DNA of 64,000 bases from Antitrichia curtipendula (taxonomy: Eukaryota > Streptophyta > Bryopsida > Hypnales > Leucodontaceae): assembly GCA_951230915.1 (NCBI GenBank), contig OX579636.1:22813567-22877566 (forward strand), given 5' to 3'. Made by a program: the position numbers and the translations under genes. Below are positions 1,100 through 42,661 of the stretch, one piece after another. The first letter of the stretch is position 1. Each line of letters opens with the position of its first letter. The notes below the pieces were generated by a model. That model saw only the letters and a list, made by a program, of their open reading frames with translations, was not told the DNA's origin and did not search any database.

Positions 1100-1468
1100 T
1101 TTCAACGCAGCAGACTTCAGAGTCGTTTTAGGCACAATAAAACAACTTTTTTCAAAAAACTTTGAACTAAGAAAAGTTGCTAATAAATCCAACTTTCACC
1201 TCCAAAAATCTGTTTGTGATTTTGATCCTCCAATCAAAAGTTATGGACAGAATTCAGAGAAGGTGTTTGAAAATATCAAAAAATATTTTCTTTATTACCT
1301 CTCTCTGATTTCTGTCCATAACTATTGATTAGAGTCTCAAAATCACAAACGGATTTTTGGAGGTGAAAGTTAGCTTGAATTTACAACTTTTCTTAGTTCC
1401 AAGTTTTTTGAGAAAAGGTGTTCTACTATGCCAAAATGACCTTCAAAGCTTGCTGAATTGAAAAAACA
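1100..1468. mobile_element. Hairpin MITE with about 160-bp inverted arms
   Basis: The left arm (about 1100-1262) is matched in inverse by the right arm (about 1307-1468), including the block CACCTCCAAAAATC followed by GTTTGTGATTTTGA and a TTATGGACAGAA block. The same words occur in the long terminal repeats of the Mutator-type element at 20060-23479, so this is probably a small relative or derivative of that family. No target-site duplication was identified. Confidence 0.6.
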
Positions 1469-1965
1469 CTGAATTTTGAATGATTAAGTCTTATGAAAAA
1501 ATCATTATATTAGAATTATGTTTTAACTCCTAAATGCTTAAGGCACCATTTTTTTATTTTTTATTTATAACAAATGGTGAGCCATGCATTAATTAAGGCA
1601 CCAAATGTCGATGCCAACAATATTTTAAAGTTCAATTAAAAGTTGTCAAGTTCTGATTTTTGATAGTTTTAATTTATGAAAAAATCCTTTTCAAATCTAG
1701 TTTTAGCATTAAAATCTGATTTTGAAAATGAATGATTATGATTTTTCTATTTAAGATTGTGTGCAAAGGTATCCATTACTAATGTTCATTTGTACTATTA
1801 GAAAGCGGAGTGTCAAATATAGTAGATCTTGGAGAAAAATGGCATGCTTATATGCCTTTTACTTAACTATAGAGATTTTGTTAACAATCTTGTTGAAAAC
1901 GTGTAAGACAAATTTCAAGTTGATTACATCTATTAGTTCTGGCAGCCAAAAATCTCTTTCTATGT
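1469..1965. other. Gene-free AT-rich spacer
   Basis: No coding frame with a recognisable domain was seen, and no repeat structure beyond simple A/T runs. Confidence 0.5.
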
Positions 1966-2069
1966 AAAGATTCTCAAAGATTCCTAAAGATTCCAAAAAG
2001 ATTCCAAAAAGATTCTAAAGATCCCAAAAAGATTCTAAAAAGATTCTAAAAAGATTCTAAAAAGATTCC
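1966..2069. repeat. 11-bp tandem repeat (AAAAAGATTCT)n
   Basis: About nine units of AAAAAGATTCT and close variants lie head to tail. The most regular units are at the right end, which suggests recent expansion there. Confidence 0.85.
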
Positions 2070-2072
2070 ATA

Positions 2073-3704
2073 TTCTATTAAATTTTGTTCATTTGGTCAT
2101 TGCACTACTTAAATCAACAGAAAAATAAGTACCATTTTGTTGATTTTCACAGAAACTTCAAAAATCAGTGAAAATGGTCATTCCAGTGCTCCAAATAACA
2201 TAAATTAGTTGATTTTATGTTGTTTTGGTCATGGTTTTCGGCAATATTCCATAGTACCTTAAGTGTACATTTTTTGTGCTTTATATAGACTGTATATTTC
2301 TTGTTTGATTTGACAAAAGGAAGAGACAACAAAGACAAAGACAATGGTTGACAATAACAAGATGTAGTCTGAAAATGTTGGAAAATGTATGGTCAAGATC
2401 TATGTATGAATTTTGGAATGAACATCAAAGATTACCTTAGATATATTTTCCATATACTAACATAAATTTTTTATCACTAGCCATAGAAAATTTTATTTCT
2501 TCAAAAATACACATATTTTTTGGGATTTGACCGTTAGCCATCCTAAAAGTCTATATACATGTTGCTTCAAGCACCAAGGGATCAACCAAAACATTTTGTT
2601 TTCTATCCACTTTTAGTTGTAGAAGGGAATGCCACAAAAACTCCTAAATTCTAGAATTAACTGCAACTATATCTTGTCTATCGATAGGAATCCCTTGCAT
2701 AGCAAATAATCTATCAAAATATTAGTAAATTAAGCAAAGTTAATTGTTTGTTTTTTCTCCACAAAGTACTTTATATTTTTTGAACAAATTTGATGTACTT
2801 CCAATTCTCATAAAAGTACTTTTTGTAGCTTGGAAAGAATATTTTTGACAATAATATGGCCAATAAAAAGAAAATCTTTATAAAGTTACTCACCTACTTT
2901 ATTTGAATGCAGCTAAAAGGATTTAGTTTTTTAATCTAACTTATGAAGTAGTCAAACCTTAGTACATCCCTCCAAAGTACTTTTTTGATGTACTTCTTAG
3001 GGGGGTGCAATGTACTTTCACTCATGTATACACCTTAAAGAAGAAAGTATTCTAGGAAAGAAAAGCATAGAAAAATTCTCTAAGTAGGAGAACTAAAAAA
3101 GTATAAAATCTCATGAAAATAGGTACCGTCACTATAGTTTCACATTTTAATTTCTAAAAAATAGGAAAACCAATTTTAGAAAAAACCTAAAAATTTTCCA
3201 TTTGGAAAGAATTTATAGTGATGAGATTTCACCCAAAGATTGATCATAAAACCATCTTCATTGTTTAGAAATTGCGTACTATGAAAATTTCAGCTCCACA
3301 TCATTAAATTTGGGGACTCATAATGTAGTAAAAAAACAACCTAAACCTCATAGTGTGACAAAAATGATGTTTAAATATTTTTTTTTTTTAATGTAAAAAA
3401 AAGAAAGGATCTAATTACCATCAAATTATACATCTCCAATAGAAATTCTAAGTTGAGGTCTATGCTTCAAAAGTTATAGAGGATTACAAGAAGGTAAACC
3501 CTCAAGGTGTATCACACACCAGCTTACTAGACTCAACTAGGAGTGAGTACTTCTCAATTTTAGAATATTCTTGGTGGGTCAATGGAGACAAATGAGGACA
3601 TTCCTGGAACGTCCCCAATGGTTACGTTGGAAGCATGTAATGAAGGTGCTTGTTTTCACGAGAATGAGAACTAAGGTAGGAGGTCCATAAAGTGATCATC
3701 TCAT
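2073..3704. other. Gene-free AT-rich region
   Basis: No gene or element boundary was recognised. The sequence is A/T-rich with short open frames only. Confidence 0.45.
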
Positions 3705-3705
3705 C

Positions 3706-3766
3706 GTTGAAACTGAATTTTGGGGAGGTAAAACATCTTGAAATATTTTTCAGGAAATTTTCCTTG
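3706..3766 (+). repeat. Dispersed repeat, copy 1 of 3
   Basis: The words GAAACTGAATTTTGG, GAGGTAAAACATCTTGAAAT and TTTTTCAGGAAATTTTC occur in the same order, diverged, near 15668-15720 and 52782-52845. This is an old interspersed repeat. At 52782 it lies inside a putative 330-bp inverted-repeat element. Confidence 0.55.
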
Positions 3767-4105
3767 TAAGACAAGACGCAATTCCCAATTCTCCACATTT
3801 CAATGAAAGGGCTGGGCTTCCTCAAGAGCGTTCGGTAACAACTAACAAGTTCTAGTGCAGTCCGGTTTGCCTTCACTATGCGAATTTTTCGTTGACTCCC
3901 ATTCTTTGGCTTGAATGCCCGATTTAACGGTCCTCTTATTTAAGTCCATTTCGATCTAGGAATGATCCAATGCAACCGTTTTTAGAAGTCCAAGCAATGC
4001 GAGATCTGAACATCCCCGAGTTCATTGATAGAAGCCCGAATAGAAGAGACGGGACACCTGTAGCAGCGGCGACGTTGGTCGCCATTGCCGGAAGAATGGC
4101 CGGGT

Positions 4106-27300: not shown

Positions 27301-30300
27301 ATGGAAAGCAACATCCAAAGTGCAGTATTGTCTCATCTTACAGATGACAAATGTGATCAAATTTCCTTGAAGTTTGAAGTAAATTCTTGGATGACCTTGC
27401 AGCCAAGAGAGAGAGGCAGACATGCGAAGGATGCACAAAATCATGGAGGAGTGTCTTTATCAGGGTCATACAAAGCAAAGATTCTGAAGTTTAGAGCTGG
27501 ACGTGGTGCTTCAAGTATTTCACAAATTGAGGTTCAACACGCATATATGTTTCGCCAATTAGTGCTTGACCCTCAAGCTACTGTTTTGGATGCAGCTTGT
27601 AACTGTAAGCATTAGTTCATAAAACTTTCTCTTGATTTAGTTTGCTCTTTCAAAAATCCCAAGGCTAATTTTGCAAACTGAAGAAGTTAGGGTTTGAGAT
27701 GAATCAGATTGGTTTCAGATTTTTTTAGATTGCTTTTAGATGAATTAAAATCAGATTGGTTTTAGATGAATTGGTTTCAAAATCAAATTGGTTTCAAATG
27801 AATCAAAATCAGATCCACCACTATGAATGACTTTAACTCTGGAAAACTATGGATAAGACTAGCAATAAATCAATCGATGAAAGATTTTGAATAGTTTCTT
27901 GTTAAGAATTCAAGGACGATGAAGCAATGGCAATGATTATCCAACATGTTGACGAACTCACAGGAGATAGAAATCCTTCAAGTTTCCAGGCTTCGATGGG
28001 ATGCTGTCTGGTATCTAATTTGGCCGATAGTGTCTAAGCTTCGGATTTGTTTTCCCTGGAAGAAAAATTGTTGGCCTTTGAATTAAGTTGAAGCCTAAGC
28101 TCACATTTGTTACTGCAAGTTAGCTAAGTATTGTAATTTGCTGATGCGGGTGTATAAGCAATTCAAACAATTGGTGTTGTTACAATTACTTTAGATTTTT
28201 ATGTCTAACAAGCTTTGGAAGCTCTGATGAATTGAGACAAGCTTTGGAAGCTGTGAGTTTGAAGGAAATTATATATGAAGAAACTATACATAGGAAAGTT
28301 AAGAGAGATGATGATTAGTTGGTCATGCGTGTAGATTAATCTAATCATCTAGCTTGTGACTAACTTTGAAAAAGCTGAGGTTTGCTACTTTGCTTGCATA
28401 TGTTAGCAGGGTTGCTATTCTGTAGCCTGTGAGCGTGAGCCTGTGAGCGTGTGAGCGTACATAGTTTTGGGATGAAGGTTGATGAGGTACCTATTATCGT
28501 GGATTTAGGACAAATATTTATACTTCACAATTTATAATGAAAAAACATTAATGATCCTTCTTCTAACCTTTTTAAAAAGTAACTGAAGTCCTTTTCTTAA
28601 AAATTATTTACGATTTAGGATTTAGGGTACTATGTAATTGTGATTATAAAACTAATATAACCTAAAAATCGCTATTGAACTGAAGGGATTTTAGATACTT
28701 ACTATTGTTTAGGACAACGCCTTCCTAATTGAATATGAACTACTAAAATATAGTTCAGGAAATGTAAATTAGGGATCAATTAGAAATTTTGTATGATTAT
28801 GAAATTTTAGAACTTCTAAGCGACATGCAATTGATCTTGAACCCATTTAGTAGGCAATTGAAGTTAGAATTTACTTATAATTGAGGAACAAAAAACAACA
28901 AGAATTAAACAATATTAAACCCAACAAACACATGATCAATCAAAAAAATGAGTCACATAGAATGAGAGTGTCCACTACTATCAGTGGACAAAGTCTCTAT
29001 CTCTGATTCTAGGGCTGTGACATCTACAAACTGCAAAACCCTCGGATCTACAGTTGTAGACTTTTTCCAGCTTGGAAAATCCCTCTGAGACGCAAATGTC
29101 AAGGCTAAAGCTTCGGCATACTCAGGCAACACAAAGGACTTCTCCGGGCTCCAAAGAAAACTAGATAAAGAAAAAAATGGACGATGACCTCGTCCATTAG
29201 AAGTCATGCTGCAAGATGAAAACCAATTATTAGACATGGTTTGAATATCACATTATACAAACAGGCAACCTAAATTCAAAAGGAGTAATGAATTATAAAA
29301 ATCTTCACATACAAATAGGAAAACAATGCAAGCTATAGATAGACTTACTTACTGAAACGGAATTTCTTCATAATGTGGGGAACAATAACCTCCACTGCAT
29401 CTTCATCATCAGAATCCGCTATGATTGCTACGGTTGAAGGAGGGACATCTGAAACTGTGCGTATCATTGGAGCCAAAATAGCATCAAAGATTGCCTTGTC
29501 CTCTTCGAGTGCAACTATATGCCTGCTCAAGATCCTACAAGTGTGGATGGAAGTCCCTACCACCAAGAAGACAAAAAAGTTAAGTACTACAACATTCAAG
29601 AAAACATAAAAGGAATATGAAAAGTTACAAATACCAAACATAACTTATGAAGTCATCAAGAATTACCCATTGCAGCAGTGCAATCGACAATAATATCATT
29701 GGGATATGTTGATGCTTTTATCAACATCTGCAAGAAACGGGGATCCTTTTCTCGTGCCCCTCTCCAAGCTTTGAAGTTGCTGTCCATGGTCAGAGTTTCC
29801 TTCTTCGTGAAATTTTGCAGAACATCATCCACAACAACATCTATCCCTAATTCCTTCAGCTTCGGACGTGGGTGGAATTGAAATTTGGAAGGTCCAACAC
29901 CAACCAAATTCCTCACCAACAGCATAACTTGAAAGAATTGGGTCTGCAAGAAAGAAGATGTATAAAAACATTTAAAAAAAAATGTAGAGATACATACTAC
30001 CAACTGACTTGAGAAACTCAAGAAATCAGAAGTGACTAAAGGGATACAGTTGAAAAGAAGAGTCAACATTCAAACAATTCAAGAAAATGAATTTGAAAAC
30101 TAACTATTGAAGATTTAATGCATTTGGATCAGAACAAAAAATTTGAAAAGGAAATTAACAGAACAATGAACATACCGTGCATCCCGTAGAAACATGTGAT
30201 GCGAGATGTAACCAATTCATTCTCCACCAATCCTTCATCTTTGTAAACGAGTACGTAGTAGCGTACTTCAGTATGGTGGCCTTTGCAACAGCGCATCGTG

Positions 30301-33300
30301 GATGAATAATCACCATAGCTCCATCATCATGCAAATGGCCGTCCGCAAACTCAAATATCGCCTCCAACCACTGAAGTTTAGCCATGTTCCACTTTGGAAT
30401 ACTAGTAGCTGGTATGGACAGAGAAGGGACAGGCAATTCCTCGGGCATATCCGCAATAACAAGGTCAACGCAAGGTTTAGCACTTAGTTTACCGTTGAAG
30501 TTACGCTGCTTGTCTTGTTTTTGCTGCAACAACATAGTTTCCATCAGTACAAAGACAAATGACACTCAAAAAATGGACTATAGGAAAATCATGAACAACG
30601 GTGAAGCTACTAACCTTATCAATGAAGATGAGAAGGTCGTCGTAGACCTTGGGGAGAGGATCCGCCAATACATCTGCAAGAGAATAGTTCAAAATCAACT
30701 CAGAGATAGTAATCTCTGAGTCCTTCAAATACTCCACAGCTGCAGGTCCATGGTGGATTTCCTCAAGACTGAGCAAAGCATATTCAGCGTCACATTTGGT
30801 GCCACGGGAAACCGAGCGCTGGTGCTGTGAGCCCTCATCGATGGTTGATGAAGGCGGTTGTAGCTCCTTCTTCTTCTTCCCCTTCATCTTCACAACTGCC
30901 GAGGCATTCTTCATCTCAAGCATTTTCTGTGTCCTCTTGGTAATCCTCTCTTTGGCTTTGTCCACCGCCTCAGAGTTCTTCAGAGCAATTCTCTTGTCCG
31001 CCTCATCTCTCCGCTTGATAGCTCTGGCTTTGGCATCCTCATCAAGTCCAATAAATTCATCAATCTCCTCCACAATTTGATGGGAGTTGATTGATTGCTT
31101 GAGGTGCTCCTCGGGCAACGGCGTGAACTCCAGTAGACAGTCCAAATACCACGCTCCCGACTTCAAGTGCAAACTAGTCCACCACTTCAACTGCGATGGA
31201 GAGAACATGCAATGCTCAGAAGAGACATCTAACCAGGTTCCCAGAAATGGAGGAAGATCACGTTTTAGAATCGCACCCTTTGGCAAAAGCTCATACTTGA
31301 AATACCTGAAACACAAAGAGTACCCATTAAAAACTTTAACAAAAGTTTAGAATCAAACATTAAAAAGTGTCAATGCCAACATCCACAAGAATGCGTACCG
31401 GTAAATGACACGTTTCACCACTAGATCGGAGCCCTTATGCTTCTTGAAATCATCAGACTTCCTGAACACATCGTGACCTCTGAATTGGGTAATGAATGCG
31501 TAGTCCCAAACTCGAATTCTCCACCCCTCCAAGTACTCGGCAAAACTCTCTGGCTCCATGGAAGAATCCATGATCAAATTCAGTTGGTCCTTCTTCACAA
31601 TGTTGTCAAACATTTATGTCCCAACTTCTTCAATCTGTACATTATGATCACGTAATTAGTTGCATGTTTTTGATTACATTCTGAAAAAGGAAACCTCCAA
31701 TTTTTATAAGATAGAGGTAAACAAAGACTTATCAGGATCCAAAATGTAACAGCAACTACATCACTTACCCCTGCATACCAATAGGCTTTTGCCAGGAAGG
31801 ACTTCAACTCGTTCTCTCCAACTGGCTTAAGTGGAAATCTTCTCGCTTCTCTTGTTTGAGTAGAACAATTCCACTAGCGGAGCCACTTCACCTTTTGATT
31901 GCTACTGATGTTGCAAGTTGCAATCAACTGCAACTTCTCCAAAGTCATTTCTGGAGTGACGTTTAAGCTCCAGTGGCGCTCAATCTAAAACCAGAGTGTA
32001 CTTCTGTTAGTGATATATGTTACAACATCAAAAAAATAAAACTAATGAACATACGAATCTTAATACATACCTCTACAAGCCAATCAGTCCCAACACTATA
32101 AGAAAACCACGTTTTTTCCTGCGTTTTCCTTTAACGCGCGATGTTTTTTGTGACGTCAACGCGTTTTTTTTTACGTCCACTTGTTTTCAAAAAACACGAG
32201 AAAAAATGCACGTTTTTGCGTGACTTTCATTGTGACACAATTACAAAAAACAACATCCAGATGAATGTCAATTCCGATGCGTTGCTCAAAGTTATGTCTA
32301 AAATAACATTAGGTCTGTTTTTTGTGACGTCAAAAAAAACAAAGATTGCCATGTCAGCAAACAAATTTTTTGGCTATGGATGAATTAGTGAAATTAATAT
32401 GGTCAATGCTAAAATGTTGACCAAATTTAAAAAAATTTAAGAAAAAGGCAACCACGTGGCATATTTTGAAAAAAAAGAAGTGGATGGATGTGCACAATGG
32501 ATGAAGAAAAGGAGTTCTTTATACTAATGGGGTGGTAGGAGGATTGACAAACTATATGGGATAAGTAAAAAAGAAGTGTCATCATTGCAGAATGTCAAAA
32601 ACAACATCAGCATGACATCAACAACAACATCCTTGCAAAATGTCAAAAACAACGTTAGGAAAATGTCAAAAACAACGTCAAGAAAATGTCAAATACAACG
32701 TCAAGAAAATGTCAAATACAACATCAGCATGTCAAAAACACCATCCAAAGTCAATTTCTTTGTTCAAATTATCCCATATCTTTTGTCACACCTTAGACAA
32801 CCATGGATTTTAATATAAATAAATAAATTCCACCCTTCATTTTTACATTCAATGAAGTAATTCATTCATTCGGCCATCTTAAGGTAAATGGGTAAGTTTT
32901 TTTTCTCTTATTGAATTCAGTAATTTTGTTTGTTCATTTTAATTTTAATTAATTATTGTCAATTCACTTTCCTACAATCTGTTCCAGTTGATGTCCAAAA
33001 AAACATCAAAAACGATGTGAAAATCGATGTCAAAATCAATGTTTCAAAAAACATAGTCAAAAATTTTAAATGTTTTGAAAGTATGCTGACGTGGCATGCC
33101 ATGTCACTTTTCTTCTGAGTCCACGTCAGATTTCCGAGGGGTCCACGTCAGAGAACACGTCATGGATGAAAAGTGATCCTACGTGTCGCTATCCGCTGAC
33201 ATGGCATGCCCATGCTAAAATTTTGACGTCAAGTTTGACGCACGTCAAAAAACGCGTTTTTTGGTTTGACGCGGCGTCAAGCCCACGTTCATGGCCGCGT

Positions 33301-36300
33301 TTTTGGCTCATCCATTTTGACGGATTTTTTAGCACATCACAGTTGACGTCAGCGTGTCAAAAAAAACGTCAATTTTGACATTTTTTTTTCCTGCGTTTTC
33401 TTATAGTGCAAGGCTTGGATTGGCGACGGCGGTTAACTTGCCCAACTTCTGTATCAATCTGGATGTCTTTTCCTTTGTACCCAATCTCATTGCAGCTAGT
33501 ACACCCTCCTCCGACTGCTCTTCCTCCAATGTTTCTTCTTTATACAACCGAACTGCAAGATCAAAGGCGGCAGCAATCTCGTACTGCGGAAGCACAAGGT
33601 CATTAGTGAACATGGTAAGCAAATCATTGATATTCAAGAAAGCAAGAAGGAAATAAACCACAATTACAAGATAGAGTATTTACCCGGAAAATGAACGAGG
33701 TGAAAACCTCAAGCGACATCGAGTACCAACTCTTCCGGAGATTTGGTGGCACTGCAACATCTCACTTTCACTTAAGTGTTTGGAGAACTTCTCAAGTGGT
33801 AACATCCCGTACTTACGAACACGATACAACGTGTGTATCAAGCTTGTCTTAATGAAGGAGTTTTCTGTGTGCCTGCAAAGCATAATGAAGTTGATGAGCT
33901 ATCTTTATTGCGATTAACAGAACAGAAAATAATACTACAAGGAGATGATCTACTTACTTATTAATGTCATGCATGGCATGCATGACATCTCCGATTTGGC
34001 CCTTTGTCTCAAGAATGATCGAATCTACCAAAATATGCCAATCCCGATCACGCTCATGGTGTTTTTTGATGTACAAAATCCACGCGAGTAGTCTGTATCA
34101 AACTCCTCCTCCTCGTGCATAGTGACATTCACATTGTCGACTCTTTCGCTCGCATCGATTTGTACCTCAGTATTGTGAGTCTGCAGAGAAATTAAACCGC
34201 CCTCCATCTACATCGGAAACAATTTAAATCAGTCAGGCTACAGAAACAAAAGTGACCGGCAACACCACAAGGAAGTTCTGGAAGAATAAAAATTAAAACA
34301 CACGGCAAGCAAACCTCTACCTGGTCCCCCGTGAAGCCCTCCTCGGCGCCGAGGGGATCTCCGGCAGTACACACAAGAACCACGAGCGAGAAAAAAAATT
34401 AACGGGGAGCAGGGTGTGTACCTCTGACCGGACCCCTGTGAAGCCCTCCTCGGCGCCGAGGGGATCCCTGGCAGTACACACAAGAACCACGAGCGAGAAA
34501 AAAATTAACGGGGAGCGGGCGTGGTTACCTCTCACCGGACCCCCGTGAAGCCTTCCTCGGCGCTGAGGGGATCCCCGGCAGTACACACATGCACCGCGAG
34601 CAAGAAAAAAATTAACGAGGAGCGGGCGTGGTTACCTCTCACCGGACCCCCGTGAAGCCCTCCTCGGCACCGAGGGGATCCCCGCAGTACACACATGCAC
34701 CGCGAGCAAGCAAAAAATTAACGGGGAGCAGGGTGTGTACCTCTAACTGGACCCCTGTGAAGCCCTCCTCGGCGCTGAGGGGATCCCCGGCAGTACACAC
34801 AAGAACCACGAGCGAGAAAAAAATTAACAGGGAGCGGGCGTGGTTACCTCTCACCAGACCCCCGTGAAGCCCTCCTCGGCGTTGAGGGGATCCCGGCTGT
34901 GCACACAAAGCACCGCGAGAGAGAAAGAAAACTCTCGGTGAGCGGGGTGGTTAACTCTAACCAGTCCCCTGTGAAGCCCTCCTTGACGCCGAAGGGATCC
35001 CTTTTGTGCAAACAAAGCACCACGAGTGACCAAAAAAATAAACAATGAGCAGGGTGGCTACCTGTGATCGGTCCCCGGTGAAGCACACCTCGAAGTCGAG
35101 TGGAACCCGGCTGTCCACATAGTAAGTTCGAAGACAGAATGAGACGAAGATCATAGTAGAAAGTTTACGGGTACCTTCAGGAATTTACCCCGAGGGTATC
35201 ACGTCGGCTGTAATTCTGGTCACCTTGATAGTGCCGTATACAGCAAATCGCGGAGGGCGTTTCTACGCTAGCCGACCACTTCAAAAATCGTGTCACTCAA
35301 AGGGGTGTCCAAAACCTCATCAAACAGTCAAGGAGAAGATGTACATGATGAAGTGGTTAACATTCTCTACCTTGACACTATGAAACCCTGACCTTTAGTG
35401 GATTCAACAGACAGACACGACGAGCACAACTCTTGATTCACTTGATTCACAAATGTAGATATTGATATTGGAGTTATCATACCTCTGTTTCCCCGGCACT
35501 ACGGGTAGGCGTGACCTCAATTCCAACATGTTGTCCGGAGCTAGCATTGTTGTCGTTGCTGTGAGTAGCTTCTTGCGTCCTTTCCATCAATGAGCGCCTA
35601 GTTGCAGGTCGTCTTCCCATTCCCTGAGTTGTTTTGACAAAACAAATGCGACCTCGATGAGTAAAATTGAGCTGAGAAATTTTAGACACGTAGAACCCTA
35701 TTATGGCCTTTGAGATTTTGGATTAGTAGTTTCTGCACTTCGAAGTTCAGTCTCTACTTGGGCGTACCAACGGTATAAAGGGATCCAGAGTTTCGTGACT
35801 GCCGATGTCTCCGCGACGAAGGTTACGGTTAACGAGGCCTGTCCAGTAGTTGCGCCGCACAGGTAATCCTAGGGTTTGGGATGAGATGTTAAAGTGGTTC
35901 TCCTCTCTTGGAAGCTCTTTCAATTTGTATTAAGTATCCAACATCTGCAATTGAGTAGAACTAATATGACTATAATGACTAATTTGGAGTCTACTTAGCT
36001 ATGCTGTGCCACTAGGCCATCACATTAGAAATCTGAAATTCCTAGAGAGTAATGGAAGTTTCCATATATGACCACAAAACAGAGTAACGTAATGGATTTA
36101 CAAAACTAGGTGACAATGAACCCAAAATACAATGATTTGTCGACTCCTTCTTGTCGCTGGTTATCATTTGCTCACTCTTGTCTGTGGAGAACTGGAAGTC
36201 TTCATGTCCATGAATTGGATGGCTAGATGATCCCCTATTAAGAAGTGACTCGCATAATAGAGTAGTTTTGGTACTTCTAATCTCTGACCTCTGCAATTGC

Positions 36301-39300
36301 TTCCTCGATGAGAACAAGAGTTTACCTCTTTTTTTCCTCTTCCTACACTGAGGACGAGGATTAGAATCGCCTATGCCATCTAGCGTATGCATAAGACTAA
36401 ATTTACATATATGGAACAAGACTAAACACAAACATGTGTGCACATCAGGAGACACAGAACATAAGAGAAGTTAAATAGTCACTTTGTATTTTTAGCATTG
36501 TCTAACCATGTGCTCATATATGGATATTTACATTGTAGGGACTGTAGATTTGTTTCTTGACCCTTATTTTGTGTGTCTCTTAAAAATCTTGAAACGGCGG
36601 GAATATTAGTGTTTACTATTCAAATTGGGTTCGGCTAGTACTTTCTGATTGTCTAATCCAATCTAAGCAATAATGATCTTATAAGCACAATAAAGGATAA
36701 TTTATTTTTTACATTAAGACCGTCATAGCTTTTAAAACTAATACTGTTGCGCCTTTAGTTCTTAAAACTAGTATGCAAGGCTGACGTTCATAATATATCA
36801 AATCAGCAGTTGCTTACATTTAATATGTCGTTGCTGGTTACAGTGGACCCTTACAGATTTTCCATAATGCCATACTACCTCCATGCATCCAAGGGGCCCA
36901 TATTTGAGGGCTTATCACATTACTCTTATTCATGAATTAGGTGAGCTTCACTACTGATTAGCAGTGGCGGATGCAGGATATTGTAGTTCTATAGATCTTG
37001 TTATTAATGACTACATCTATAGTAATGATGACGTTGCAGTACAATGACTTTGAATTTCAAATTCATGTTAGTCGCATGTGTATATAGCGATTTTGGAACC
37101 TCACCTTAAGTTTGGATGTTTTCTTTATTTGTATCTCGCTTCCTGTATTCGTTTCTTTAACTTCTATGGCCTCCATTCGGGTCGATGGCCATAAGACCCC
37201 ACTAGTAATTCGTTTAGGAGAAGAGGGTTTTACTGTACTATCGTCCCATCTTCTTCATGTTCAATTCGGTTTTATACAGTCTAGTATCTACGTTGAAGAA
37301 GAAGTCATGACTGAATCTGGTTCTTTGAAGGAGTCTATTCACATTCCGGAAATAGTAGTTGACCTCGATCATGTCTAACACCTTCGTTTTGGGCGATATC
37401 GAGCTTATGGTTTACCATGTAGCGTCACGTTACCTTCCACTCAGATTTTGGCTCGGCAGTCAGAATACTCGACTGTGGAAATGCCTTTTAACTGTCGTGA
37501 AAGTAGAAACTCTACTAAACGCAAGCATGAGACAAATGCGAGTACACCTGTTCAACTCGTCCGCATAAAGCAAGAGCGTGTGGATCTTGTCGTAGATCTG
37601 TCTAGTGAGTCCGAGGGAGAATCTCCTAGCCAACCTATTTGTCAAGCAACGTTTCCGAGTAGAGTCTCAAATGATGTCTTGCAGACAACATCTGATGTAT
37701 TGTGCACGCCTTCCCATAGTCCAGCTCTGTCAAGTCACTCTCGACCACCAACTTACCCGAGTGGTCCATCGTCAATTAGTATCATTGGATGCTTACGCAA
37801 GCTAGCAACACTTTGTAAATCACGGAACGAGATTGCTGCTTTAGACTACAACTCTCTCAATCACCAGAAGGTGCAGTATCTTCCTGCTGAGTTTGATGGT
37901 GATGTAGTCTTTGAGTTGCCTTGTCTTCGTGTTTCATCTTCATCATCCGTTGTTGGGAGTCTACAGGGCATGGATAAGAAATACGATGGACATGTATGGT
38001 GTTGGACCATTACCTCGAATATTAGCAACGAAGATGGCCTCAAGTTCAGGAAGTCCTCGTGTGCAGGACATCTGATTTGTAACAACTCTGACTGCGACTA
38101 CTTCAAAAGATCTTCAAAGCGGAATGAAACTGAGTGGTGTGATTATACTCCTAGTCCCTTTCATATTGGCGGAAATCCTCCAAGGGATTCATGTCTTCTA
38201 CGCAAGATATGCAAATTTCCTCCGCATTGTGTCAATATATGTGATGCTAGAATATATTACGTTTTTGGCAATACAATGCAGATGACTAGAGCATGCATTC
38301 ACCTCGGATTTCATATGCATCCTGTAGCTTCTGGAACTTGTAGAGAGTCATTAGACACTATTTCCGGCCTCATTGCAGGCGAGGTTACTAAAACACCCGC
38401 TGCCACTAACTCTGCAATTGCTTTAGCAGCCAGTAAGCAATTTCTAGACAACCACCTTATTTATAATGGAGAAGGCCCTAAGAAAATGTTGCGGGGGAAC
38501 TCGCTAGAAGATATCATGGACAAGTTCCAGATTCTCAGTTCTCCAAACATCCGAAACGTTATTTCTTCTTTTCGTACTAGCGGGAAAAGCAGGGTTATTG
38601 ATAGCATCATGAATATGAAATACAATTTGAGGTTTGAGTATAATCATGACAGTGTCTTCTCTGGATAAGGAAAGGAAAAGGTCTATTTGTTTAAGATGTT
38701 GGTAGAAGGTCCAGGTAGTGGAGTGGACTTAGTCACTCGTATGCAACCTGGAGGAATGCATGGCTTATGTTTGATCATGTCAAACGCGTCAAGGATTGGA
38801 CAACCATGGCTTGCCATGTGTATGATACTGGATGCAGAAAAGTCATGACAATCGCAGTTTGTGACATGCAATCTAAGGACACGGAAATACAATGCATCAT
38901 GTGGAAGTTATTGAACGGGGTCATGAGGCGCAATGGTGTACAGAATCCAAACTTCAAAGGCTTCATGGCAGATAGTGCACAAGCAAATTGGAATGCTGTG
39001 CACATTGTATACGGATCAAGGGATTCCAAAGTAGAGATGCAAAATCGTGAGCGAACATGTTTATTGCATTGGAGTACTTCACTGCATCGCCATACCCAGA
39101 AGCTCATAAAATCGGACTTTCAACACCAACATACTCGTCTGTGCAAGCAATACAAGGATTCTAAAACTATGGATGAAGCTGAGACGCACTACTTGGCGAT
39201 TCGATCATGATGGCTATCATCTGGAGCAGCCTCTGAAGATGCTTTAAGGGAGCTAGAGTTGTGGCTTGCATTTTGGCACTTTCGATATCGTCAATGGGGC

Positions 39301-42300
39301 GGATTCATGCAAATGGTACTTCATTCCACGTCATTTCTTTCGTAGTCTTTGTTGTGAATGTTTCTCATTTGCAATATTTTTTTCATTTTTTTTTTTTTTT
39401 ATTCATTTTTTTTTTCATTTTTTTTTCATATTATTATATATATATTCATATATATATATATATATATTTCAATAATTTCCTTTGGGTTGCATCTAATTAT
39501 ACTATGTATTGATTTTTTTGATCACCTCAAGTAGTGGTTGCCCTTCACTCGGCGCCGAGGGGACTCTACAATGCTTACTAGCTACTTCAAAACTACTAAA
39601 GGCCATTCTCATTTGTAATATTCATGGATTGAAATTTTTAGTGATGGTCTTGCATTTTATTCTTTGTTTTACTGGTTCCAAAATGTATGCTTGGTAGTGG
39701 TTGACCTTCCCCTTGGCGCCAAGGGGAAGCTACACAGAATATGCAACAGTTCAAAACTACTTCATTACTTGCTCATTAGTAATTTTTCTGGATTGAATGT
39801 CTTAGTGACTATCTTGCATCTTATTCTTTTATCTTGCTTCTTCCAGGATTTAAGCATTGAAGAGATGGTGGACATGCCATCATGCAACTTATCCGAAATA
39901 GTCCATAACAGATGGTTGCAGCAATCCGGTAATCGAGGTAATGATCTATTTGCCACCACTTCCGATGATTGCATTCGAGCCTTCATGCAGATGACAAATT
40001 ATCGTGCTTTTCTTAAAGGCAATATATCGAGATCAGGGCCATCCAAAGAGGAGTTAAAGTTAAGAGGTGCTAGATGCAGCGGAGATCCAAAGAAGATTGT
40101 TGAAGCTTTAAATGACCTTCCCGGAGCAGCTCATGTCGGAACACGCATTCCACATTTGGAAGGCGAAGAGATTTTTGGTAGCAGTATGCTCGAGCTTGAC
40201 CTCCCAATTGGATCGGATGGTGACTCCCATCGTCCAGACAAGGTGAATTTCTCACAGCCACGTGTCCTAACACGATCTACACATACGCCCATAGTGGCGT
40301 CCAATGAACACTTGGTGGCTGATATTGCGCATGTACCACACGTTACGACAGCAATGGAGAGTGATTGTGATACTTCACATTGACACATTGCAAGAATTTC
40401 GCACAAGTCTGCTTGCAAATGTCATGCCCAACAAAGGGGTTCCAACATTCGCTATGTTGCCAAAATAGCAAAGGGATCTAAAGGCATTCCAGCTCCGACG
40501 TATCGTGGTAGAAAAAAACAGTATGGTGGAAATAAGGAGATCATCACCGACTTCTGGTTCTACCCAGATGATATTGAACGATGTGTACGAGGCTCTAAAC
40601 GTGGTTGGGTAATTGACTGGCCTCAAGTACCAGATTTCTGGCCTGTATTAACGGGTACTAGTTTGACTCGCCAAGAAACACTGCTACTACAAGAGGCCGG
40701 CTTTCAACTTCAACAACGACCACCTATTTCACCTCGACGTTTGTTCACAATGTCCAATGTTTTCCACGCAATCCTTTACGATCAACCTAGTCCTTTGCAT
40801 GCGGACACATACCCAACAACTCGAAGGAGCAAGGCTATTCGACGTATTGCAAATGCTCCTACTACAGAGCATCGCAATAAATGGGAGAGTGCTGGTAATG
40901 TCAAAGGATCCATCTTGGGAATAACCATGCTTCCCTTTCCAGGACTTGGAGCTATAGTCTCACTTCAATCCGGAACCGAGCCTACACAGAAGGTCTATCG
41001 TATCACACTTGGCATGTACTCGGAGTGTAATTGTCCCAATTTTGTAGACATGGCCGTCTCAGCAATTGGTGGACGGCAGCAATACGTTAATTGCAAACAT
41101 TTGTACTACTTATTTCGTTACTTCTGCAAGATGAATCCCGAAAATGATAAGTTCATACATTCTCCAAGCTTCAGCTTCAACGAAGAGAAGCTCCTTCTCA
41201 ATAGGGCTGGTATCATCAAGGTGGCAAATGAGAGTCTTTCAAATGTTTAGAGAACGAAAAATGTCAAAGTGATAGACATAAGAGATTGGAAGATTGTAGA
41301 CTGAAGTTAGTTTTATAGCTTTAGAAATACAGATTTCTATTTGGATGAATACTGTATTTTTCCGAAGTTGTCAGTACAAATTATCTTCAGATCCGACTTG
41401 CATTTTGTGTACTACAGTTGTTTGCCTTCAAATTATTTACTTTTCATATTTCAAACAATAGATAAAATTAATGTCACCCTACAAATAATAAATAACCACG
41501 GTGATAGGGTCACGGTAATAGGTCCACGACAAGAGGTTCAAGTTTTTTAATATAAACAGAAAATATTTCCAATATTTTTTATGATATTGTCAACTTCTTG
41601 AACTATGATTGACTTCTCTAAGGTATTTTTTAATTTTAGACCTCTATGCTCACATAATCCCCGCTCACCGCTCATACGCTCACGCTCGCAAGCTCACAGT
41701 CTAGCACCGTTGCATATGTTAGCTTGGATTTGCTCCTTTAATTTATAAGCTTGGTATTGCTTGTGTAGATCTATTTCCTTCTACCCATGTTGACTGGGTT
41801 GATCCAAGAAGCATCACGGGAGTTATTTGCGTCACTCATGTTGAGATTAGAGAGGCTACTATGGGTGACTGCACACACAAACAATTGTTGGAGGAGTCTG
41901 TATTTTTCTACAGCGCGTGGTACCATCCTAACAAGAATGGATATGGTCAGGTCGAACCTATTCCTTTACCAGGTTTCAATGACCCAGGCTGGCCTCTACC
42001 CGATATGGCGACAAGTGAAGCCTTTAGGTCACGTTTGTGGTCAAATTTTCAATCTTCTATGAAACACACAACAAGCAGTAGACAAACTCATATTAGTTGG
42101 TTTTTGCCAATAGCTATCATGGTTGATTTATTTTCTGTTGCCTCTTCTATATATAAAACTCGTACACTATGGGTTTTCAAAGATCTCTCAGAAGAATTGT
42201 TCAGCTCATTGATGGACAAGGGGTGGGACATAAAGGTAGCACACGGAGCAGATGAAATACAATGCATAGTTGACCGTGAATCTATATTGTTCAAATACCA

Positions 42301-42661
42301 CATAGGGCGATCAACTTTGTACACAAATTTTCAATACAATCGCATGCGATTGATGGATGGAAATGTTTGGATAAGCATTGACCAAAAACAAGGCATGCAC
42401 CCGGTGAAGGTTCAGTGTGAGATGGATGGTTGGGAACATCAGTTAGAGTTAGGCCATAATTGGACAATATCTTTACTACGATCAGAAGTGCAAATGGTAC
42501 TAGAAACAAAAGCACCAGAAAACTTTTTGTTTTGGATTATACACGGTGGTCTCACCATTCAATGTTGGATGGCACAGGTGAATCGCAGGAATGAGAAAGG
42601 AAAGACAGCAAGCGATGTCCTCCCTCCAAAACGGTTGCGGATTGTTCCTAAAGTGGAGTAG
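27301..42661 (+). CDS. Unknown 398-aa protein, gene split by a 13.3-kb insertion in its intron
   Basis: Exon 1 is 27301-27604 (MESNIQSAVLSHL to DAACN) with donor GTAAGC. Exon 2 is 41769-42661 after acceptor TGTGTAG. The phase fits exactly: one base left from exon 1 plus AT from exon 2 makes a Tyr codon, giving DAACN-Y-LFPSTHVDW, 1197 nt in all with no internal stop. Exon 2 has an aromatic-rich block (VFFYSAWYHPN), a proline/glycine block (PLPGFNDPGWPLPD) and a basic C-terminus (PPKRLRIVPK) that could be a nuclear signal. The intron was about 0.85 kb before the Mutator-like element landed in it and is now about 14.2 kb, so splicing may still be possible. The gene converges on the coiled-coil gene downstream, and both lie inside the outer inverted repeats. 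No family recognised. Confidence 0.5.
32094..33408. mobile_element. Non-autonomous CACTA element in a coding exon, 1315 bp
   Basis: The ends are CACTATAAGAAAACCACG and, read inward from the right, CACTATAAGAAAACGCAGG. The 3-bp duplication CAA flanks it (32091-32093 and 33409-33411). Taking out the element plus one CAA rejoins an open exon of the methyltransferase-like gene (ANPSL followed by GTDWLVE and a GTATGT donor). The interior has many ACGTCA and GTCAAAAACAACGTC words (strongest at 32585-32740) and no transposase. The terminal 16 bases resemble the CACTA element at 7673-8736. Confidence 0.9.
34317..35140. repeat. 107-bp minisatellite whose units look like exon plus intron
   Basis: Eight units are marked by GTGAAGC at 34331, 34438, 34545, 34652, 34757, 34864, 34971 and 35078, seven steps of 105-107 bp. 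On the minus strand each unit has a conserved open stretch of about 15 codons (PLGAEEGFTG core) followed in most units by a donor-like GTACAC or GTAACC, a pyrimidine-rich 60-bp spacer and, in some units, an AG acceptor. It lies between the first and second clear exons of the methyltransferase-like gene. Most units carry CTCGGCGCCGAG or a one-base variant. Confidence 0.88.
37166..41250 (+). pseudogene. Mutator-like (MULE) transposase with SWIM zinc finger, decayed
   Basis: Exons are 37166-37372, 37445 to 39315 (with internal breaks) and 39847-41250. The first two join in phase 0. Order of parts: an acidic/serine N-terminus; a zinc-binding region with CAGHLICNNSDC and MTRACIHLGFHMHPV; the DDE-type core with FDHVKRVKDWTTMACHVYD (first Asp), PNFKGFMADSAQANW (second Asp) and a CLLHW block; then the C-terminal SWIM finger, CNC near 41030 and CKH near 41097. 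These are typical of MULE transposases. The frame is broken by TAA at 38666-38668, a one-base shift near 38760, TGA at 39208-39210 and TGA at 40381-40383; coding similarity resumes after each. The gene is divergent from the methyltransferase-like gene in the same element. Confidence 0.82.
39316..39846 (+). repeat. MULE intron with 163-bp tandem duplication and palindromic GGCGCC cores
   Basis: After a T-rich run and a (TA)n tract (39375-39468), two diverged copies of a 163-bp unit start with GTAGTGGTTG at 39531 and 39694. Copy 1 has the palindrome CTCGGCGCCGAG and copy 2 has CCCCTTGGCGCCAAGGGG at the same place. The intron ends at TTCTTCCAG. The palindrome of copy 1 matches the core of the 107-bp minisatellite in the divergent gene. 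Confidence 0.75.

Follow-up and report, generated by a model that had tools for sequence, protein, structure and literature searches.

The autonomous Mutator element of maize, MuDR, holds two genes, mudrA and mudrB, which are transcribed convergently, makes a target duplication of about 9 bp, and has in mudrB a second gene that is not known to be methyltransferase-like. Here we present a two-gene element of 13.3 kb from Antitrichia curtipendula, found in a stretch of 64,000 nucleotides (contig OX579636.1, positions 22,813,567 to 22,877,566; the whole of this analysed stretch is called the window below), which resembles MuDR in having two genes and differs from it in that these genes, one for a transposase and one for an accessory protein with a methyltransferase-like domain (the passenger), are transcribed divergently. 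Comparison of the element with its relatives in the same genome supports the passenger as a regular partner of the transposase. To our knowledge, the plant transposon protein known for sequence-directed anti-silencing is VANC, of the VANDAL group of Mutator-like elements (MULEs). In the parts of PMC5735166 available to us, VANC is described as directing anti-silencing by sequence: VANC21 and VANC6 bind short tandem motifs in noncoding parts of their own elements, namely introns and the region upstream of the transposase gene, the motif repeats vary rapidly in number, and protein and motif change in step with each other.

The likeness of the present family to VANDAL elements lies in the combination of a transposase (VANA in VANDALs) with a conserved accessory gene, and in short tandem motifs, variable between copies, that stand in introns and in upstream noncoding sequence (PMC5735166 and PMC10398659, in the sections at hand). 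Unlike VANC, the accessory protein here has an amino-methyltransferase domain and no DUF1985 match; the family carries terminal inverted repeats (TIRs) of about 30 bp, whereas the accessible portion of PMC13317346 calls VANDALs non-TIR MULEs; its motif is palindromic, whereas the VANC21 motif YAGTATTAY is not; and anti-silencing is established for VANC (PMC5735166, same sections), whereas here it is proposed by likeness. An earlier note on this DNA had drawn VANDALs as a contrast, and because of the tandem palindrome arrays described below the comparison looks closer than that, while the difference in protein class stands.

Three further comparisons are instructive. The bdelloid rotifer protein N4CMT is likewise a bacterial-type, permuted PF01555 domain in a eukaryotic gene with introns, but it is a host gene with an intact SPPY motif that places N4-methylcytosine (4mC) on transposons, whereas the present gene is itself borne by a transposon and reads DMPE (PMC8885841, in the text available). 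Fungal transposons with TET/JBP dioxygenases and oomycete Harbinger and MuDR elements with a SET domain also carry cargo from a class of epigenetic enzymes, but from another enzyme class and in another host group, according to the available part of PMC12730594, which names the VANDAL and SET-domain passengers as well. The beta-class adenine methyltransferases DpnA, MboIIA and CcrM share with the passenger the motif order IV...X-I and sequence similarity in motif X-I, whereas in the passenger the catalytic motif is replaced, about 700 extra residues precede the domain at the N-terminus, and the whole is a spliced eukaryotic transposon gene. We found no report of a DNA-methyltransferase-like gene in a MULE in the literature searched, which had most subscription journals outside its scope and did not take Repbase Reports separately, and the main text of PMC6446971 has no occurrence of the words 'methyl', 'accessory' or 'passenger'.

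The element and the pairing of its two genes

The element is a complete DNA transposon, occupying 28407-41712 between two copies of the 10-bp target duplication CATATGTTAG. Just inside the duplication stand the imperfect TIRs of about 30 bp, CAGGGTTGCTATTCTG... and CAACGGTGCTAGACTG..., with the starts CAGGGTTGCTA and CAACGGTGCTA, followed inwards by four copies of GTGAGC at one end that face four copies of GCTCAC, in inverted orientation, at the other. Ten relatives (K1-K10) were taken as 16-kb stretches and joined by a script, and gene pieces of four more were added later. Both ends could be read in six of the ten, the stretches of K1, K2, K8 and K9 having no right end, and five of these six (K3, K4, K5, K6 and K7) have a 10-bp duplication of their own at identical ends; since K5 and K6 have identical flanks they count as one locus, giving four independent loci, while K10 has no target duplication. 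The duplicated sequence differs among the five independent loci, the window included. The flanking direct repeat and the inverted subterminal clusters read in the earlier note are confirmed, the duplication also at these further loci. The left 3 kb of the element gave 45 matches in its own genome when the best 40 of 399 candidates were scored, 33 of them beginning at element base 1, and the right TIR occurs at 247 genome sites at two or fewer mismatches, against none for the reversed control.

The 45 left-end (passenger) matches merge to 40 loci, five of them being second pieces, and a 1.3-kb query from the right (transposase) end gave 40 matches, with 40 of 611 candidates scored. A correctly oriented right end accompanies 37 of the 40 left-end loci, in 35 of the 40 within 37 kb and in two only at 112-115 kb, and conversely 37 of the 40 scored right ends have the passenger end, counts that the limit on scored candidates biases toward close relatives. 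Fourteen of the left loci belong to one array on C1 (41.45-42.12 Mb) and do not count as independent; of the 26 others, 23 are paired, and the sites listed include a right TIR for two of the three left loci without a partner, at distances of 13 and 38 kb. Because the scoring favours close relatives, we sampled eight of the 247 right-TIR sites outside the left and right match lists. The transposase was present at five of the eight, at 69-87% amino-acid identity per block, one site (L042) is a short derivative, and two (L043 and L048) have neither protein within 3 kb. In three of these five divergent relatives the passenger region was read as well, and all three carry the gene, with 45-75% of amino acids identical per block and one or more in-frame stops in what was read of each. 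The earlier note had proposed the methyltransferase-like gene as partner of the transposase and had named, as the pattern that would speak against this, relatives that have the transposase but never that gene; the loci compared here show the opposite.

The derivative L042 (about 1838-3000) is 1.16 kb long and has both TIRs, the 10-bp duplication GGTACAATGG and a 63-residue remnant of the transposase. The C1 array holds 14 passenger-end and 16 transposase-end matches of near-equal score, in both orientations and spaced about 40-60 kb apart, often by 48,03x bp, and the element seems to have been multiplied there by segmental duplication rather than by transposition.

The passenger and the transposase are under similar purifying selection. 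We calculated the ratio of nonsynonymous to synonymous divergence (dN/dS) by the Nei-Gojobori method with our own script for the 66 pairs of 12 passenger copies, leaving out K2, K6 and the window copy as sisters or broken; the deletion in the window copy inflates the passenger values of any pair with it. The mean is 0.27 (range 0.16-0.73), printed pairs with a dS of 0.15 or more lie between 0.17 and 0.27, and the high printed values, 0.48-0.73, come from pairs with a dS below 0.07, as expected if copies decay after insertion. Between K2 and K3, at a dS of 0.22 for both genes, the ratio is 0.20 for the transposase and 0.19 for the passenger. By segment, summed dN over summed dS is 0.19 for the N-terminus, 0.11 for exons b-d, 0.20 for exons e-f, 0.33 for the methyltransferase domain and 0.44 for the last exon (60 of the 66 pairs), and therefore the element has kept the whole passenger protein, and the middle region most.

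Individual copies are mostly decayed. The passenger is fully open in two of the 14 fetched relatives, K9, which has no indel, and K7, in which exon a2 ends with an in-frame change of 9 bp; K14 is free of stops but carries +4 in exon f and -3 in exon g, and the other 11 have one to six internal stops. Compared with ten other copies, the window passenger has lost 391 bp from exon a2 and has a CACTA-type insert in exon c, and it further lacks 1 nt in exon b and has stops at model codons 341 and 383. GT-AG borders are retained at most exon ends, the exceptions being one border each in K10, K19 and K21, the part deleted in the window, and in K5-K7 the projected a2 donor, where the 9-bp change lies. 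On the earlier note's question whether both genes are always present and intact in relatives, the genes are regularly paired, but few copies are intact. Two insertions into the passenger were also seen: L011 and L013 (K1 and K2), 100 kb apart and with the same left flank, share one of 2.1 kb, and at L050 (about 1177 to 3844) a divergent passenger is split by some 2.7 kb of sequence, with a piece of exon f on either side.

The transposase of the window contains four internal stops and has lost 10 nt. Among those fetched whole, only K3 is open across both modelled exons (1180 codons; the presumed start is out of frame in it, and exon 1 was read from a point beyond). A SWIM-type pattern CxC(n)CxH is present in five of the seven family copies with a complete exon 2, one of which contains a stop, and is missing from K5 and K6; all five divergent copies with a transposase have it. 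Two Asp residues, a Cys and a His are invariant across 23 transposase sequences, and were assigned to DDE and CxxH by eye. We classify the element as Mutator-like, rather than as a proven MULE, because of its target duplication of 10 bp (within the 8-11 bp usual for MULEs, and present also in the derivative L042), its imperfect TIRs and the SWIM-type pattern, and not because of a profile match: no transposase model of Pfam matched the window or K3 transposase, PF10551 (MULE) found nothing in a set of 22 homologues and exon 1 of K3, where the best value for any family was E 0.078, no profile match was found for the SWIM-type finger, and no PDB sequence matched the transposase. The earlier note's SWIM-type MULE transposase thus stands as regards pattern, TIR and duplication, but not as regards the MULE and SWIM profiles. 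A structure prediction of the transposase core from a two-sequence input (mean predicted local distance difference test score, pLDDT, of 44) was too poor for use. A protein database holds 155 homologues of the transposase at E <= 0.01, and the 120 of them listed (P0001-P0120) have 45-72% local identity and no precomputed Pfam domain; the transposase family seems to lie outside Pfam coverage.

The methyltransferase-like domain of the passenger

Residues ~690-930 of the passenger appear, from sequence comparison, to be a homologous beta-class N4/N6 amino-methyltransferase domain, which we do not assign as an active enzyme. The window exons g-h-i match PF01555 (N6_N4_Mtase) with E 7.4e-6 and 26.5 bits, and the same family matches four of four relatives (best E 1.6e-4) and two of two divergent sequences (E 9.4e-6 and 2.7e-5), all values shown (E 7.4e-6 to 2.7e-4, 21.4-26.5 bits) being under the curated cut-off of 26.7 bits. 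Of the profile searches proposed in the earlier note, the one for N6_N4_Mtase therefore comes out just under the cut-off and the one for MULE without a match, while its divergent, intron-rich gene with the motif order of the beta class is confirmed, with 11 exons and the order IV, then X, then I. Weak matches were also obtained in four of four sequences to the PHROG DNA methyltransferase family phrog_6952 (best E 1.8e-4) and to the NCBIfam CcrM model (best 0.0027). When a composite of the domain was compared with phages by tblastn, 118 records matched (best listed E 2e-3), and the 30 listed comprise 25 methylases or methyltransferases, one ParB, one hypothetical protein and three unannotated records. 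Alignment by hhalign with phage methyltransferases gave probabilities of 93.9 and 95.9, the latter against five phage enzymes with E 5.5e-9 over 55 columns.

No match in PDB was found with a profile built on the whole passenger protein. A domain profile built from four sequences, two of them divergent, found nine, of which the best three were two DpnA entries (E 3.6e-4 and 3.9e-4) and MboIIA (0.039); CcrM came at E 1.5, behind unrelated chains such as mesothelin (0.7). These alignments show the motif X-I half to be homologous at the sequence level to bacterial and phage N6/N4 methyltransferases.

The catalytic motif is where the passenger departs from these enzymes. Read by eye, motif IV is VDLVIADMPEG against VDLILTDPPYG in the phage consensus, its Asp standing 178 residues ahead of that of motif I, and motif I is mostly DCTAATGAS against DFTMGSGST. 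In place of the catalytic (D/N/S)PP(Y/F/W), 17 of 18 sequences have DM(P/L)E and one has DMPK: the 15 copies have DMPE in 13, DMPK in K18 and DMLE in K19, and the three divergent relatives have DMPE, DMPE and DMLE. The aromatic residue of motif IV occurs in none of the 15 copies and in none of the three divergent relatives. In view of this replacement the earlier note's suggestion of a methyltransferase that marks its own DNA is not supported, and the best inference is a retained methyltransferase fold that lacks the canonical catalytic site and is probably non-catalytic.

Upstream of the domain the protein has a well-conserved N-terminal block, FFVCDGNHRLLAW...VMHAMHDIN, in which L051 is 69-72% identical to the others where they align, as against 63-65% for the methyltransferase domain of divergent sequences; the earlier note could not see it because it is partly deleted in the window. 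An assignment of this block, which reads DGNHR, to the ParB/DGQHR type was considered and not confirmed: it has no Pfam match, hhalign gave a probability of 0.2 against a set with one phage ParB-type protein, and a weak DGQHR match (E 0.078) came up in one of four sequences. The structure predicted for exon a2 (mean pLDDT 53, best fold match E 0.91) was too poor for use.

The palindromic motif and the proposed role of the passenger

Between the divergent genes lies a tandem array of 105-108-bp units, in ~8-40 copies per element, which in K5 is split into short stretches. In the unit consensuses of nine copies 36 of 110 columns are invariant, and the longest invariant run, with 10 of those 36 columns, is the perfect palindrome TCGGCGCCGA. 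Over 164 motif-like sites, picked from eight copies at four or fewer mismatches, the five inner base pairs are complementary in 75-97%. The exact 10-mer occurs in the window only at 34343, 34450 and 39549, the last of these in the transposase intron, which carries the motif too, often in variants; one window site there reads CTTGGCGCCAAG, with symmetrical changes that preserve the palindrome. The introns of divergent relatives hold a 20-bp perfect palindrome, TCCCCTCGGCGCCGAGGGGA (L041), one exact 10-mer with variants (L047), several CCCTCGGTGCCGAGGG-like sites in a tandem array, all of them variants (L046), and single imperfect variant sites (L044 and L045), while the array upstream of the L051 passenger is made of another unit, 64 bp long, that contains ATCGGCCCCGAG or CGCG forms. 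The 20-bp palindrome occurs at 166 genome sites at one mismatch or less, against none for its control; of the 50 sites listed, 28 are found at 1.9-2.03 kb inward from a right TIR of the list (the C1 array accounts for about 16 of these), and 22 have no right TIR near among the 100 of 247 TIRs listed. Units that differ in length and sequence share mainly the palindromic motif, which points to a site that is bound more than to the repeat itself. The longest arrays, with 30-40 units, are those of K1 and K2 (L011/L013).

To explain these parts together we favour, at roughly even odds (about 0.5), a VANC-like self-recognition system built on a methyltransferase fold. The family would be a Mutator-like cut-and-paste family of about 13 kb, with a transposase that has a SWIM-type finger and a divergent accessory protein of 1047 amino acids that presumably recognises TCGGCGCCGA and its variants between the genes and in the transposase intron. 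There it would act without catalysis, or with altered catalysis, the methyltransferase fold serving as a module that binds DNA and S-adenosylmethionine (AdoMet), and its most likely role would be to keep the promoters of the element from being silenced, as VANC does in VANDAL MULEs; it is the similar arrangement of parts in VANDAL elements that suggests protection from silencing. If this is true, anti-silencing by tandem motifs arose more than once, in an unrelated protein class and another transposon lineage, and the beta-class amino-methyltransferase domain has a eukaryotic mobile home in which a writer has seemingly turned reader. The many copies of the family, some with open reading frames, make tests of binding and methylation straightforward. 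A more far-reaching form of the idea, which we put forward tentatively and with less confidence, is that a captured beta-class methyltransferase of bacterial or phage type became a self-recognition device that reads, or by an unprecedented DMPE chemistry modifies, a palindrome multiplied by the element itself, a private and co-evolving epigenetic code in which divergent relatives would have divergent motifs (TCGGCGCCGA versus TCGGCCCCGA).

Several observations weigh against the VANC-like system. What binds the palindrome could instead be the transposase or a host factor. DUF1985, the domain of VANC, was not found, an hmmscan of four members giving PF01555 and otherwise chance-level families. 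The methyltransferase domain is less constrained (0.33) than exons b-d (0.11), and therefore the essential function of the passenger may lie outside that domain. Its profile matches are confined to motif X-I (~55 residues), and motif IV was placed by eye and from a segment that HMMER scored below zero. As for the motif, the units were rotated on GGCGCC before alignment, and the place of the invariant run is thus not blind; the exact 10-mer is present in just two of the eight array sites of the window; of the 164 sites, only 12% keep the 12-bp motif symmetrical at its outermost pair; and the 64-bp unit of L051 is not a palindrome. Searches for passenger homologues outside the element's own genome found none at E 0.001 or at E 10 with about 8000 candidates scored in each, weak evidence since 5-mers must be shared and exons may sit apart.

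The main rival reading, to which we give rather low credence, is that the accessory protein takes part in transposition or integration as a second factor, which excision or insertion would require and which has nothing to do with silencing; its methyltransferase fold would bind the palindrome arrays or the subterminal GTGAGC clusters. MURB of maize MuDR offers a likened precedent. The regular pairing and the similar selection on the two genes are what an obligatory factor would show, and the clusters stand at both ends, but a conserved palindrome between the genes and in the transposase intron is more typical of regulation than of end recognition, and the short derivative L042 is uninformative on which proteins it needs. 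Next comes a reading that we regard as unlikely, an active DNA methyltransferase (4mC or N6-methyladenine, 6mA) whose motif, DMPE, would be unusual and whose substrate would be the palindromes of its own element. The motif order, the conserved flanking strands and the Gly of motif I, kept in most copies, agree with such an enzyme, as does the repeated palindrome in that it includes GGCGCC, the kind of site that such methyltransferases recognise. N4CMT, moreover, is a bacterial N6_N4 methyltransferase that writes 4mC in a eukaryote, but changing its SPPY to APPA abolished activity (PMC8885841, in the text available), and in the passenger the aromatic residue is absent throughout, while motif I is mostly DCTAATG and not DPFxGxG. 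That the passenger is a passively captured host fragment of no function for the element is highly improbable, for although plant MULEs do carry captured gene sequences (PMC13317346, in the portion consulted), this is a full-length gene of 11 exons, under purifying selection like that on the transposase and present in divergent relatives, and the dN/dS of the older lineages, which is not near 1, already contradicts the idea.

Feature map and neighbouring sequences

The coordinates of the element's parts in the window are collected in Table 1, in which the copy number of the array is that given by Tandem Repeats Finder (TRF).

Table 1. Parts of the element and of its two genes, by position in the window
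Feature	Position	Strand	Basis
Target-site duplication, left, 10 bp, CATATGTTAG	28397..28406	.	sequence, ends in relatives
Terminal inverted repeat, left, with 4 GTGAGC copies at 28429-28456	28407..28460	+	sequence; genome matches
Passenger gene, 11 exons, 1047 amino acids in open relatives, broken in window copy	28953..34207	-	comparison with relatives
Methyltransferase-like domain of the beta class (N4/N6), exons g, h and i; exon g holds motif IV, 'VDLVIADMPEE', and motif X-I, 'FLQMLIKASTYPNDIIVDCTAAMG', has its end in exon h	29349..30523	-	PF01555, PDB profile, hhalign
Nested CACTA-type element, 1315 bp, CACTATAAGAAAA...TTTTCTTATAGTG, 3-bp duplication CAA, within passenger exon c	32094..33408	.	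absent from 10 other copies
Exons a1/a2 remnant, N-terminal domain (relatives have DGNHR there), lacking 391 bp at the 34096/34097 junction	33957..34207	-	comparison with relatives
Tandem array, 107-bp unit, 7.6 copies by TRF; exact palindrome TCGGCGCCGA in units 34343 and 34450, variants in rest	34313..35119	.	
Transposase exon 1, N-terminal part rich in Cys/His followed by D...D...CxxH, with internal stops in window copy	37166..39315	+	start codon by eye
Palindrome site CTCGGCGCCGAGGGGA, transposase intron	39548..39563	.	
Second intron site CTTGGCGCCAAGGGGA, both arms changed, symmetry kept	39712..39727	.	
Transposase exon 2, SWIM-type CxC(20)CxH	39847..41250	+	pattern search
Terminal inverted repeat, right, with 4 GCTCAC copies at 41648-41697	41640..41712	-	sequence; genome matches
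Target-site duplication, right, 10 bp, CATATGTTAG	41713..41722	.	sequence, ends in relatives

A 312-amino-acid open frame (41723-42658) adjoins the right flank and is one of eight matches in the genome, the others being 64-72% identical; no clear Pfam domain was found in it, and the transposon may sit in or beside a host gene on this side. The nested CACTA-type element within the passenger carries TGTCAAAAACAACGTCA-like repeats.

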